Part shown: one piece after another, positions 10,087-13,979 of the stretch | How the letters are laid out: each line of letters opens with the position of its first letter | How positions within the stretch are numbered: the stretch's first letter is position 1 | Source: Bryobacteraceae bacterium | GTDB taxonomy: Bacteria; Acidobacteriota; Terriglobia; Bryobacterales; Bryobacteraceae | Assembly: GCA_025056455.1 (NCBI GenBank) | Contig: JANWVY010000003.1 | Span: 340,519-404,518, forward strand | Reading direction: 5' to 3' | Length of the DNA stretch: 64,000 nucleotides | Position numbers and translations under genes: made by a program | The notes under the pieces: model-generated | Databases searched by the model: none | Seen by the model: the letters and a program-made list of their open reading frames with translations, nothing else | Told to the model about the DNA's origin: nothing

Positions 10087-11619
10087 TCAACCAGAAAGCT
10101 TCACCAGCTCAGCCTGACGCCGGATCGCAGCGCGGTCGGATGTAGACAAGCGAGCGAGGTTGCGCAGCTGAAGCTCCATGCGCGGGATGCGGCGCAAGCG
10201 GTCCCGGTTGCGCATGAGGAAGTCCCAATAGAGGGTTGTGAAGGGGCAGGCTTTTGGACCAGTGGCTTGAAGCGGATCAAAGCGGCAGCCAGCGCAGTAG
10301 TTCGACATGCGCTGGATATATTTGCCAGTGGCGGCGTAGGGTTTGGAGGCCATCAGTCCGCCGTCGGCAAACTGCGACATGCCGATGACGTTGGGTAATT
10401 CGACCCACTCCACAGCGTCCACATACACAGCCAGGTACCATTCATGGATTTGTTGTGGAATGACACCCAGTAGCAAGGCGTAAAGACCCGTGACCATCAG
10501 GCGCTGGATGTGATGGGCGAAGCCGTAGTCGAGAGTTTGGCGGATGACTTCGCCAAGACACCGATACTCGGTTTCTCCGGTCCAGTAGAAACGGGGCAGC
10601 GGGAGTTGGGCTTGGAGGGCATTACGCTGGGCATATTCGGGCATGAAGGTCCAATAAATGCCGCGCACATACTCCCGCCAGCCCAGGATCTGGCGGATAA
10701 AGCCTTCTACGGACTCGACCGGGGCGTGGCCATGGTCGAGTGCCTTTTCCGCTACTTGGATCACCTGGCGCGGGGCAAGAAGTTTGAGGTTCAGGGCCGC
10801 TGAAAGTCGGGAGTGAAACAAGTAGGGCTCGCCGGTCCACATGGCATCCTGGTAGCGGCCAAACAGCGGAAGTCGTTTTTCGATGAAGTCGTCGAGAGCC
10901 TGTTCGGCCTGCTGAGCGGTAACCGGGAAGTCGAAGTGATTGAGGCTGCCCGGATGATTGGGGAATTGTTTCTCTACGAGCGCCATGACTTGGCGTGTGA
11001 CTGTGTCGGGCGGGAAAGAGCGAGGGGGGCTGAGAAACGGCGGCCCAGTTGAAGAAAAGGCTTCGCGGTTGGCGGCATCGTAATTCCAGCGGCCCCCGGC
11101 AGGCTGTCCATCGTGCAGAAGAATGCCATGCTGGCGTCGCATCTCACGGTAAAAAAACTCCAGCCGGAGCTGTTTGCGCTCTGCGGCGTAGTGCCGAAAC
11201 CAGGCGAGTGAGCAGAGAAAGTGGCGATCTTCGCGAATTTCAAGCGGGCAGTTGAACGCGGCGGCGGTTTGCTGAAGGGCCTGCTGGACGCGGTAATCGC
11301 CCGCTTGCACCATGACGATCTTTTGCGGGCGGTGCCGTTGAATGGCGGAAGCCAGTTCGGCGGCAAGGCTCTGCGCATTGGAGGGATCGTCCAAGGCGCG
11401 GTAGTCCAGCTTCCAACCCTCTTTGCGGAGAGATTGCGCAAAGTGGCGCATGGCGGAGAGAAATAGAACTGTCCGCGCTTTGTGACTCCAGACATGGGTC
11501 GATTCCTCGGCCACTTCGGCCATCCACACCAAATCCGATTCGCGGCAAGCGTGGTCGAAAGCGGTGGATTCCCGGTTGAGCTGATCGCCGAGCACGACGA
11601 TGAGATTGCGGGGACTCAC
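10087..11619 (-). CDS. 4Fe-4S (FeS-BCP, PhrB-type) photolyase
   Basis: 510 residues of the bacterial cryptochrome/photolyase group with an iron-sulfur cluster. The N-terminal Rossmann-like antenna domain starts with NLIVVLGDQLN. The helical FAD domain contains FHSRLSAALNLKLL, ILGWREYVRG and GLMASKPYAATGKYI. Four cysteines match the cluster ligands: Cys354, Cys442, Cys445 and Cys458, with the C-x2-C-x12-C spacing known from Agrobacterium PhrB. PhrB repairs (6-4) photoproducts in DNA using blue light. The GTG start at 11619 has no clear ribosome site. The gene is divergent from the SDR/DUF2256/cryptochrome operon at 11890, so this is one photoprotection locus. Confidence 0.92.
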   Translation of the reverse strand: MSPRNLIVVLGDQLNRESTAFDHACRESDLVWMAEVAEESTHVWSHKARTVLFLSAMRHFAQSLRKEGWKLDYRALDDPSNAQSLAAELASAIQRHRPQKIVMVQAGDYRVQQALQQTAAAFNCPLEIREDRHFLCSLAWFRHYAAERKQLRLEFFYREMRRQHGILLHDGQPAGGRWNYDAANREAFSSTGPPFLSPPRSFPPDTVTRQVMALVEKQFPNHPGSLNHFDFPVTAQQAEQALDDFIEKRLPLFGRYQDAMWTGEPYLFHSRLSAALNLKLLAPRQVIQVAEKALDHGHAPVESVEGFIRQILGWREYVRGIYWTFMPEYAQRNALQAQLPLPRFYWTGETEYRCLGEVIRQTLDYGFAHHIQRLMVTGLYALLLGVIPQQIHEWYLAVYVDAVEWVELPNVIGMSQFADGGLMASKPYAATGKYIQRMSNYCAGCRFDPLQATGPKACPFTTLYWDFLMRNRDRLRRIPRMELQLRNLARLSTSDRAAIRRQAELVKLSG

Positions 11620-11889: not shown

Positions 11890-12606
11890 GTGCGAGTGGT
11901 GGTAATTGGGGCGGCCGGCGGCATCGGCTCGGCTTTGACCAGAAGGCTGGCCGCGCGGCAGGCAGAGATTGTGGCATGTGGACGCACTCCGGAAACGCTC
12001 GAAAAACTGGCGGATGAAACGAATGCCATCCCTGTGGTAGTGGATGCTCGTGACCCCGATTCGCTGGAACGGGCCTTGACCAATTTTCAGCCCGTGGACG
12101 CGATTGTGAACTGCGCTGGTTCGATTCTCTTAAAGCCCGCGCACCGTACTAGCCTGAGCGAGTGGAAAGAAACGCTCGAAACGAACCTCACCACGGCCTT
12201 CGCGGCCGTGCGAGCGGGCGTTCAGGTGATGAATCCCGCTGGGGGATCGATCGTTCTGTGTTCGACGGCGGCCGCGCGGGTTGGCCTAGCCAATCACGAA
12301 GCGATCGCAGCGGCCAAGGCGGGCGTGATTGGTTTAACGCTGTCGGCCGCGGCGACCTACAGCGCGCGTAACATCCGCGTGAATTGTGTTGCTCCGGGCC
12401 TGGTGGATACGCCGCTTTCGGCGCGTATCACGGCGAATCCTGCGGCCTTGAATGTGTCACGATCCCTGCACGCGCTAGGCCGCATTGGTCAAGCTGAAGA
12501 AGTTGCGGCGGCCATCGCCTGGCTGCTCGAGCCGTTGAGTTCCTGGATCACAGGCCAGGTGATTGGCGTGGACGGAGGGCTAGCCACGGTCCGTGGTAAG
12601 GCTTAA
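11890..12606 (+). CDS. SDR-family protein lacking the catalytic tyrosine
   Basis: 238 residues with a Rossmann fold beginning directly with the nucleotide-binding motif GAAGGIG, then NCAG, the conserved Ser in CSTAAA, and a C-terminal [11 protein letters not shown] motif. All are typical of short-chain dehydrogenases. In the active-site YxxxK motif the Tyr is replaced by Ile: the sequence is [12 protein letters not shown], with the Lys kept. It may bind NAD(P) but is unlikely to do standard SDR catalysis. The start is GTG 11890 without a clear ribosome site. It is the first gene of a tight operon with DUF2256 and photolyase-family genes, so a role linked to flavin, pigment or light-dependent repair is inferred. 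Confidence 0.85.
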
Positions 12607-12613
12607 GCAAGCG

Positions 12614-12775
12614 ATGCCGCACAACAAGTCGCAGCTGCCGCAAAAGATCTGTGTGGTTTGCCAGAGGCCGTTCGTTTGGAGGAAGAAGTGGAAGCGGGTC
12701 TGGGAAGAGGTGATCTATTGCAGCGAGCGGTGCCGGCGGAGCCGCAAAAGCCGGCCGATGGCCTCCGGAAATTGA
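12614..12775 (+). CDS. DUF2256 zinc-ribbon-like small protein
   Basis: 53 residues. It matches the DUF2256 pattern: [19 protein letters not shown], then [13 protein letters not shown]. Two CxxC/CxxxC pairs could hold a zinc ion, and the chain is very basic, which fits nucleic-acid or partner binding. The ATG is 7 nt after the SDR stop, and its stop TGA overlaps the TTG start of the next gene (TTGA). DUF2256 is often found beside or fused to cryptochrome/photolyase proteins. Its biochemical role is, to my knowledge, undetermined. Confidence 0.88.
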
Positions 12776-13566
12776 AGCGTGAGTTTTCGAGTCGGGAAGA
12801 GCTAGCGCGGTACTTGCAGGAGCAGTTTCCCCGCCCCGCCCAGCGCGATGCTCATCTGAGCCCGATTCGCGGCGGCCGCAGCCAAGCCGAAGCGGCTCTT
12901 GCCCCCATTCAGCCGGCCCGATACGCTTTTACGCGGAATTATCTGGATGGTTGCGTCACCGGTCTCTCGCCCTATATCCGCCATGGCGTGATTGCTTTGA
13001 CGAGAGTCCGCGAAGTTGCCTTGTCACGCGTGGCGCATCCCTTTCACGCTTCCAAATTCGTCGTAGAGCTTGCCTGGCGCGATTACTGGCGCCGGCTATA
13101 CGGGCTTTGGGGCCAGGGCGTGTGGCAGGACCGCGAGCCGTATAAAACGGGCTGGGCTGCCTCCGACTATGCGGAATCGCTTCCTGTAGAAGTGGAGCAG
13201 GGACGCACCGGACTGGCCTGCATGGACGCGTTTGCGCGACAACTGGCCGAGACCGGTTATCTTCACAACCATGCGCGAATGTGGGTAGCAGCTTGGGTGG
13301 TGCACTGGCTACGCGTCAAGTGGCAAGCTGGAGCGCGCTGGTTTCTCAAGCACCTGCTGGATGGCGATCCCGCTTCGAACAACCTTTCCTGGCAATGGGT
13401 GGCCTCGACCTTCTCGCACAAGCCGTATTTTTTCAACCGGGAAAACCTCGAGAAATACACGCGAGGCGCCTACTGCCAGAAGTGCCCGCAGCGAGGTGAT
13501 TGCCCGTTTGAAGGCAGCTATGAAGAGCTGCATCGCAAGCTTTTCCGGAGCCAGGTCGAGGGATGA
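12772..13566 (+). CDS. Stand-alone FAD-binding half of a cryptochrome/photolyase with candidate Fe-S cysteines
   Basis: 264 residues from TTG 12772, which overlaps the DUF2256 stop. It contains only the helical FAD-binding domain: [36 protein letters not shown] and [14 protein letters not shown]. The N-terminal antenna domain is absent and is encoded separately by the next gene. Cys150 sits at the same position as ligand Cys354 of the neighbouring 4Fe-4S photolyase (C-x5-R-Q-x4-G-x2-H-x3-R in both). The C-terminal [13 protein letters not shown] gives Cys235, Cys238 and Cys244, aligned with the photolyase C-x2-C-x12-C but with a shorter loop. A 4Fe-4S cluster is therefore plausible. The stop overlaps the next ATG (ATGA). 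Confidence 0.88.
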
Positions 13567-13979
13567 AACCGCTCGTTTGGGTGCATGAAGACTGCTTGCG
13601 CCAAGAGGCGCCCTACTGGAATCAACACCGGGAGGCGCCGGCGGTTTTTGTTTTCGACGACGAACAGCTGGAGCAAGAAGAATGGACGCTGAAACGCATT
13701 GCTTTTCTTTACGAATGTCTGCTGGAGCTTCCAGTAGAAATTCTACGGGGCGACACCGTGGAGCAGTTGCGACTGGCGCAGCAGGCTTATGGCTGTGATT
13801 GCATTGTGACGGCGGACACGCCCGAGCCGCGCATCCGGCGAGTGATTGAGGCGTTGCGCCAGCACACGAGGGTGGAAGTAGCGCCCGAGGAGCCCTTTGT
13901 CGAGTTGGACGACAGGGTCGATTTGCGGCGCTTTGCACGTTACTGGAAGCAAGCGCAGCTCAAGCTGTTCCCGCAATGA
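13563..13979 (+). CDS. Separate antenna-domain-like half of the cryptochrome
   Basis: 138 residues resembling the N-terminal alpha/beta (Rossmann-like) domain of photolyases: LVWVHEDCLRQEAPYW, APAVFVFDDEQL, YGCDCIVTADTPEPRIRRVIEAL. It ends exactly where a fused protein would continue into the FAD domain. It is encoded after, not before, the FAD-binding half, so the pair is split and order-permuted. ATGA overlaps at both ends (start with the FAD half, stop with the full photolyase) imply coupled translation and balanced amounts. I infer a heterodimer with the 264-residue protein. Chromophore binding cannot be judged. Confidence 0.8.
   Translation: MKPLVWVHEDCLRQEAPYWNQHREAPAVFVFDDEQLEQEEWTLKRIAFLYECLLELPVEILRGDTVEQLRLAQQAYGCDCIVTADTPEPRIRRVIEALRQHTRVEVAPEEPFVELDDRVDLRRFARYWKQAQLKLFPQ

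Follow-up and report, generated by a model that had tools for sequence, protein, structure and literature searches.

A split Phr4/Phr5-type photolyase gene pair with four iron–sulfur-type cysteines and a neighbouring DUF2256 gene in an acidobacterium

Introduction

Do two overlapping genes, the first for an FAD-binding domain and the second for a protein resembling the antenna domain of a photolyase, together encode one light-dependent repair enzyme, and would that enzyme carry an iron–sulfur (Fe–S) cluster? The question is raised by a locus of a Bryobacteraceae bacterium, analysed here within a window of 64,000 nucleotides (the whole stretch of DNA under consideration). A preliminary description had proposed a two-subunit flavo-iron-sulfur cryptochrome or photolyase. 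Our analysis makes it rather likely that the pair is an acidobacterial Fe–S photolyase of the Phr4/Phr5 type, with two halves that dock in trans and with repair of cyclobutane pyrimidine dimers (CPDs) as its most likely activity. The split, reversed arrangement is itself already in print, since split phr4/phr5 and fused phr6 genes were described in picocyanobacteria by Haney et al. 2022 (PMC9426592); the window pair is an acidobacterial member of the Phr4/Phr5 kind, and thus extends what is already known to a new host. It places a split, reversed Fe–S photolyase outside the cyanobacteria. The part of the find worth following is a link to DUF2256, an uncharacterised family to which the co-occurrence with photolyases gives a testable role.

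Results and discussion

Organisation of the cassette

Separate, ATGA-overlapping genes for the FAD domain and the antenna-like domain were recovered at the positions given in the preliminary description (Table 1), but the run of genes extends beyond the span considered there. On the 5' side, the end of a DUF2256 gene reaches into the opening codons of the FAD half, its stop codon overlapping the TTG start, and on the 3' side a second ATGA overlap joins the antenna-like half to the gene of a longer photolyase-family protein. The latter gene is probably a member of the operon that stands outside the two-subunit enzyme, and similar genes were found in eight other loci of short photolyase-like (SPL) proteins (>370 bits). 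Its product had a branch length of 3.29 in an 84-row tree, and its active-site motifs, read by eye, appear unlike those of class I. The FeS-BCP gene of the window lies on the strand opposite to the cassette.

Table 1. Genes and cysteine codons of the cassette and its surroundings (window positions)
Feature	Position	Strand	Evidence or remark
FeS-BCP-type prokaryotic photolyase, 510 aa; cysteine reference (354, 442, 445, 458)	10087..11619	-	PF04244 E 2.7e-78
Short-chain dehydrogenase	11890..12606	+	PF13561 E 4.8e-53; upstream of cassette, same strand
DUF2256 small zinc-finger-type protein, 53 aa, first cassette gene	12614..12775	+	PF10013 E 2.1e-22, 79.4 bits (cut-off 25)
FAD half (SPL/Phr4-like), 264 aa, TTG start	12772..13566	+	PF03441 E 2.7e-26
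Cys150 codon of FAD half	13219..13221	+	hhalign; pairs with FeS-BCP C354
Cys235–Cys244 codons, CxxCx5C motif	13474..13503	+	hhalign; pair with C442, C445, C458
Antenna-like half (Phr5-like), 138 aa	13563..13979	+	family profile against N-domain of class I-like photolyases
Divergent full-length photolyase-family protein, 490 aa	13976..15448	+	PF00875 + PF03441

The FAD half and its relatives

The FAD half matched the Pfam family FAD_binding_7 (PF03441) over profile positions 2–127 of 203 only, while the antenna-like half, with an E-value of 0.076, stayed below the curated cut-off of PF00875. An AlphaFold2 model of the FAD half, built on a 66-row FAD-half alignment (A3), was mostly helical, with a mean pLDDT of 94.2 and a pTM of 0.89. 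Among solved structures, class I CPD photolyases were its best sequence matches.

A scan of genome_contigs matched at least 595 stretches, at least 592 of which encode a relative, and the best 80 were examined. From the fetched loci 93 FAD-domain sequences were aligned; removal of the window copy, the duplicates L061 (equal to L004) and L072 (equal to L007) and the distant rows L111–L115 left the 85 homologues on which conservation is counted here. Neighbourhood counts refer to 88 locus rows, among them the window's own and two duplicates. Close copies of the FAD half (E <1e-99) were present in 4 of 60 other genomes of its kin. A five-row FAD-half profile matched 124 of the 396 genomes of the phylum, most of them with scores far below that of the FAD half, and only three beyond the window (G156, G183 and G225) exceeded 300 bits. 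On plasmids, 177 records matched at E 1e-5 and 11 of these covered at least 80% of the query, two of which were looked at. The viral_contigs scan with the window FAD half, a single-protein query that reaches close relatives only, returned no relative, and within that reach a viral origin was set aside.

Four conserved cysteines

Unconstrained hhalign comparison of A3 with an 11-row FeS-BCP alignment (A5) gave a probability of 98.3 (E 1.6e-14) and paired Cys150 with Cys354 as well as Cys235, Cys238 and Cys244 with Cys442, Cys445 and Cys458, precisely as had been proposed from the window alone. The FeS-BCP cysteines are invariant in the 11 rows, and so are the four of the FAD half in a five-row alignment of close relatives. 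Non-conservation in homologues had been named as a possible refutation; all four cysteines were instead retained in 78 of the 85 non-duplicate homologues (C150 in 82, each of C235, C238 and C244 in 78), and since no other column of the FAD half holds cysteine in more than five of them, this conservation goes beyond chance. The spacing between the CxxC motif and the third cysteine varied, with five residues in 51 sequences, three in 16, six in six, seven in three, and 10 and 13 in one each. No homologue among the 85 carried the triad without C150. None of the four cysteines was present in L068, L076 and L085, and only C150 in L083, L086 and L088, while the set of L106 is incomplete in a sequence cut by the contig end. 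The six homologues that have a tail without the triad group together in the tree (support 83/85), so the cysteines may have been lost in a single event. These same six sequences represent natural cluster-free controls.

Compared with class I-like rows, A3 gave a still stronger hhalign match (probability 100, E 6.6e-39), which stops before the cysteine tail. Together with the cysteine pairing, this describes a protein whose body is class I-like and whose tail is FeS-BCP-like. A class I-like enzyme with the four FeS-BCP cysteines is relevant to the published debate over a cluster in the photolyase ancestor; the available passages of PMC9649867 describe a proposed SPL ancestor as bearing an FeS cluster.

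Active site

The residues E99 (85/85), W102 (82/85), N166 (85/85), M170 (85/85) and W209 (84/85) are kept in all or nearly all homologues, and align with E274, W277, N341, M345 and W384 of E. coli photolyase, which we take, as regards their roles and in part their numbering, to be its CPD active-site residues. Positions of the FAD pocket are similarly conserved, with Y51 and R169 in 85/85, D197 in 84/85 and D199 in 80/85. The inner tryptophans of the electron chain are retained (W207 in 83/85, W184 in 85/85), whereas the outer position, presumably that of the distal W306 in E. coli photolyase, is never tryptophan, being isoleucine in 64, valine in 19 and leucine in two of the 85 homologues. 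At the position of the second active-site histidine of FeS-BCPs (H370 of the window FeS-BCP), all 85 homologues have asparagine. Because these residues are of the class I CPD type, CPD repair is favoured over the (6-4) activity predicted by Haney et al., and CPD-type chemistry is our favoured reading of the FAD half from its active-site residues. Of the proposed two-subunit flavo-Fe–S enzyme, the photolyase is upheld by homology and by the UV phenotype of a published relative; a cryptochrome function finds no support, as almost all homologues retain the active-site residues of a photolyase.

The antenna-like half, gene order and natural fusions

Three of six aligned homologues of the antenna-like half matched PF00875, the best at 1.1e-6, and in hhalign the family profile matched the N-domain of a 19-row class I-like alignment with a probability of 97.1 (E 6.6e-11). 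The short length and weak match mean that the protein may bind no chromophore. Its open frame is conserved across several phyla, and it was present in 70 of the 88 locus rows, lying no more than 200 bp from the FAD half in 69. In L055 the distance was 4.5 kb, and in 18 rows no antenna-like half was recognised in the DNA retrieved; three of these rows (L047, L054 and L106) end less than 300 bp from the FAD half. Close pairing is thus not universal. Three Chloracidobacterium-like genomes, placed by their FAD halves beside a named Chloracidobacterium locus in the 84-row tree, carry the antenna-like gene elsewhere in the genome than the FAD half. In one of them (G156; L024 1486-1944), the antenna-like half stands alone beside a gene that by eye looks like mnmA, far from the FAD half.

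In 11 of the 69 close pairs, a single stop-free frame spans both halves, with the FAD half first in each (the second half of L103 is cut by the contig end). These fusions demonstrate that the order, which had been noted as the reverse of that in a fused photolyase, is genuine. Two Deinococcus plasmid genes, read by eye, look like further fusions carrying the four cysteines. Both of these apparent FAD–antenna fusions, one of them on plasmid pDrdI of Deinococcus wulumuqiensis (L138 2959-4377), are annotated only as "FAD-binding domain-containing protein".

Comparison with known systems

The Phr4/Phr5 and Phr6 enzymes described by Haney et al. occur in marine Synechococcus and Cyanobium, and the gene set recurs in Nostoc punctiforme; all Phr4 and Phr6 proteins place the FAD domain first and carry four Fe–S cysteines, which in RS9916 Phr4 are C169, C254, C257 and C263 (PMC9426592). 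The window pair resembles Phr4/Phr5 in having the FAD-domain gene first, the photolyase-domain gene second and the four cysteines. It differs in that its genes overlap as ATGA, whereas the phr4 and phr5 genes are 7 bp apart, in its acidobacterial instead of cyanobacterial host, and in having a DUF2256 gene directly upstream, a family never mentioned in the main text of PMC9426592. Haney et al. also raise the question of frameshifting joining both frames. In work on the RS9916 genes, cells that had lost phr4/phr5 survived UV-C less well and E. coli given the pair was protected against UV-C, while UV-B survival was not affected in Synechococcus and very little so in E. coli; from this UV-C phenotype and the cysteine set, (6-4) activity was predicted (PMC9426592).

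As an FAD domain without a fused N-terminal alpha/beta domain, the FAD half would by its sequence fit the SPL class, in which the available passages of PMC9178010 count SePhrC of Synechococcus elongatus. The class is named for its missing N-domain, yet in the window a gene resembling that domain comes next. NewPHL and SPL are treated as one group with inverted topology in the part of PMC13274461 that could be consulted. As portrayed in the accessible text on NewPHL/Phr7 (Emmerich et al. 2020), these proteins likewise have the FAD domain first and the second domain C-terminal, but in one protein and without the four cysteines; membership was rejected for the window pair because of its separate genes and its cysteines. 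The distant rows L111–L115 may belong near NewPHL. An acidobacterial protein (L152 955-2457), fused with the FAD domain first, with a further C-terminal stretch and without the cysteine set, may also be a NewPHL.

FeS-BCPs (PhrB, CryB; prokaryotic (6-4) photolyases) have the four cysteines at positions aligned with those of the FAD half, but possess a PF04244 N-domain, the normal domain order and an HH active-site motif where the FAD half has HN. The pair was not assigned to them, as the only PF04244 match of the window is the 10087-11619 protein. Class I CPD photolyases, finally, have active-site residues in common with the FAD half, but show the normal order, no cysteine set and a distal tryptophan, for which the FAD-half family has I, V or L; their architecture of PF00875 followed by FAD_binding_7 in one chain is not that of the window pair.

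Proposed function and alternatives

We infer the cluster, FAD binding, docking, lesion and light use of the window pair as follows. The FAD half would bind FAD and hold a [4Fe–4S] cluster near its carboxy-terminal end, with C150, C235, C238 and C244 as ligands. The separately translated antenna-like half would most likely dock in trans at the site that the amino-terminal domain takes in an ordinary photolyase, and light-excited FADH- would split a pyrimidine dimer, most probably a CPD, by passing an electron to it. A split Fe–S enzyme acting on (6-4) photoproducts, the prediction of Haney et al., would agree with the phr4/phr5 phenotype in UV-C rather than UV-B (PMC9426592), which fits (6-4) better than CPD repair, and with the FeS-BCPs of the same cysteine set being a prokaryotic (6-4) photolyase subtype in the available passages of PMC9178010. 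We nonetheless consider it unlikely, given active-site residues that match class I CPD photolyases, the invariant replacement of the second FeS-BCP histidine by asparagine, and the available passages of PMC9649867, in which SPL proteins count as CPD repair enzymes.

The two-subunit nature of the proposed CPD photolyase and its cluster can also be questioned. If the FAD half worked alone, with the antenna-like gene having another role or being a remnant, the 18 locus rows in which that gene was not found nearby, its separate location in the Chloracidobacterium-like genomes and its poor PF00875 match would fit; the adjacency or fusion of the halves in 69 of the 88 rows and the open frame conserved across phyla make this quite unlikely. 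That the four cysteines bind zinc or are structural only, without a redox cluster, is conceivable as CxxC motifs also bind zinc, but seems very unlikely against the position-by-position pairing with the FeS-BCP cysteines in a homologous fold, and against a Rhodococcus SPL in which Xu et al. in 2021 reportedly found the four cysteines and an Fe–S cluster. Overlapping frames could, in principle, stem from a frameshift in a photolyase gene of rearranged order, through decay or an assembly artefact. However, DUF2256, FAD half and antenna-like half follow in the same order in all four close relatives, the order of the halves recurs in loci of several phyla and the natural fusions retain it, so that a frameshifted pseudogene was ruled out and a broken gene of any such origin is barely credible.

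Phylogenetic placement and spread

The 84-row tree, built after nine of the 66 rows of A3 and nine of the 19 class I-like ones had been set aside, and in which long branches meet, places the window FAD half next to a sequence from an uncultured Bryobacteraceae (99/94). This pair falls within a four-cysteine group of 39 rows that also holds cyanobacteria, Chloroflexi and others (85/93). The FeS-BCP rows form a group of their own (100/100) on a branch of 6.11. The window FAD half thus groups with cyanobacterial Phr4-type sequences in a tree whose rows include no sequence named by Haney et al., and shares 60–63% identity with Nostoc loci and 54–59% with Synechococcus loci. Among the matches listed, relatives were found in loci labelled Acidobacteria, Chloroflexi, Planctomycetes, Verrucomicrobia, Proteobacteria and Deinococcus, as well as in Synechococcus and Cyanobium. 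Part of this spread may already be covered by Xu et al. 2021.

Co-occurrence of DUF2256 with photolyases

A DUF2256 gene lay at most 400 bp upstream of the FAD half on the same strand in 26 of the 88 locus rows (24 of 86 without duplicates), 24 of the 26 being Acidobacteria or Chloroflexi by title or kinship. Adjacency as a universal rule was therefore dismissed. In 32 FAD-half genomes, hand-picked mostly for lack of a nearby DUF2256 gene (adjacent in L039 and L052, 1.8 kb away in L104), the domain was found somewhere in 28, being missing in those of L040, L090, L094 and L102.

In many genomes, the wider searches gave scores to no more than a subset of the first-look candidates (to 36 of 49 and 36 of 88 in two cyanobacterial examples, to 24 in most Acidobacteriota and to up to 58 in Pseudomonadota), which leaves room for misses in the following counts. 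DUF2256 was found in 89 of 194 cyanobacterial genomes, namely in 89 of the 96 with PF03441 (E <=1e-20) versus none of the 98 without (Fisher 1.6e-47, descent ignored; the 98 may be largely a few lineages). All 36 cyanobacterial genomes matched by the A3 profile (E <=1e-40), two of them below 250 bits and perhaps NewPHL, had DUF2256, and so did 53 of the 56 with PF04244. Within the PF03441-bearing cyanobacteria, the tie to the FAD half was weak (36/36 versus 53/60 others; Fisher 0.03), which suggests that DUF2256 follows the photolyase family and not one enzyme. Among 115 Pseudomonadota genomes, PF03441 (E 1e-10) was present in 18 of 19 with DUF2256 versus 51 of 115 overall (Fisher 7.6e-7, descent again ignored). 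Since 33 other genomes carry PF03441 but no DUF2256, the photolyase can do without it.

In the Acidobacteriota, where 31 of 297 genomes have DUF2256, the link to photolyase was loose. Synechococcus elongatus, a control genome of that search, has DUF2256 as well. Thirteen of the 31 belong to the genus g41, in which the domain forms part of longer frames (148 to 295 aa), and not one of these 13 appears among the 124 genomes that the five-row FAD-half profile matched. In g41, DUF2256 may have a second, photolyase-free use. Of the nine acidobacterial genomes with an SPL or NewPHL-like score above 130 bits, eight have DUF2256; the ninth, G360, is not among the 31 and may lie outside the 297-genome sample.

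We tentatively propose, at somewhat less than even confidence, that DUF2256 is a third cassette member and an accessory factor of the bacterial photolyase family, not of this enzyme alone. It might, for example, help to recognise lesions, load cofactors or dock the antenna half. The protein is small and Cys-rich, and its family is placed in the TRASH zinc-finger clan in the excerpts available from one paper. The open-licence papers searched contained nothing linking DUF2256 with photolyase, and the passages available on DUF2256 itself do not concern photolyases; the co-occurrence is possibly new. In five genomes of less than 2 Mb, a DUF2256 match was found close to a PF04244 match, at 30 bp in G591, G645, G647 and G653 and at 133 bp in G621, and in G647 (L147 1383-2935) it comes before the PF04244 photolyase.
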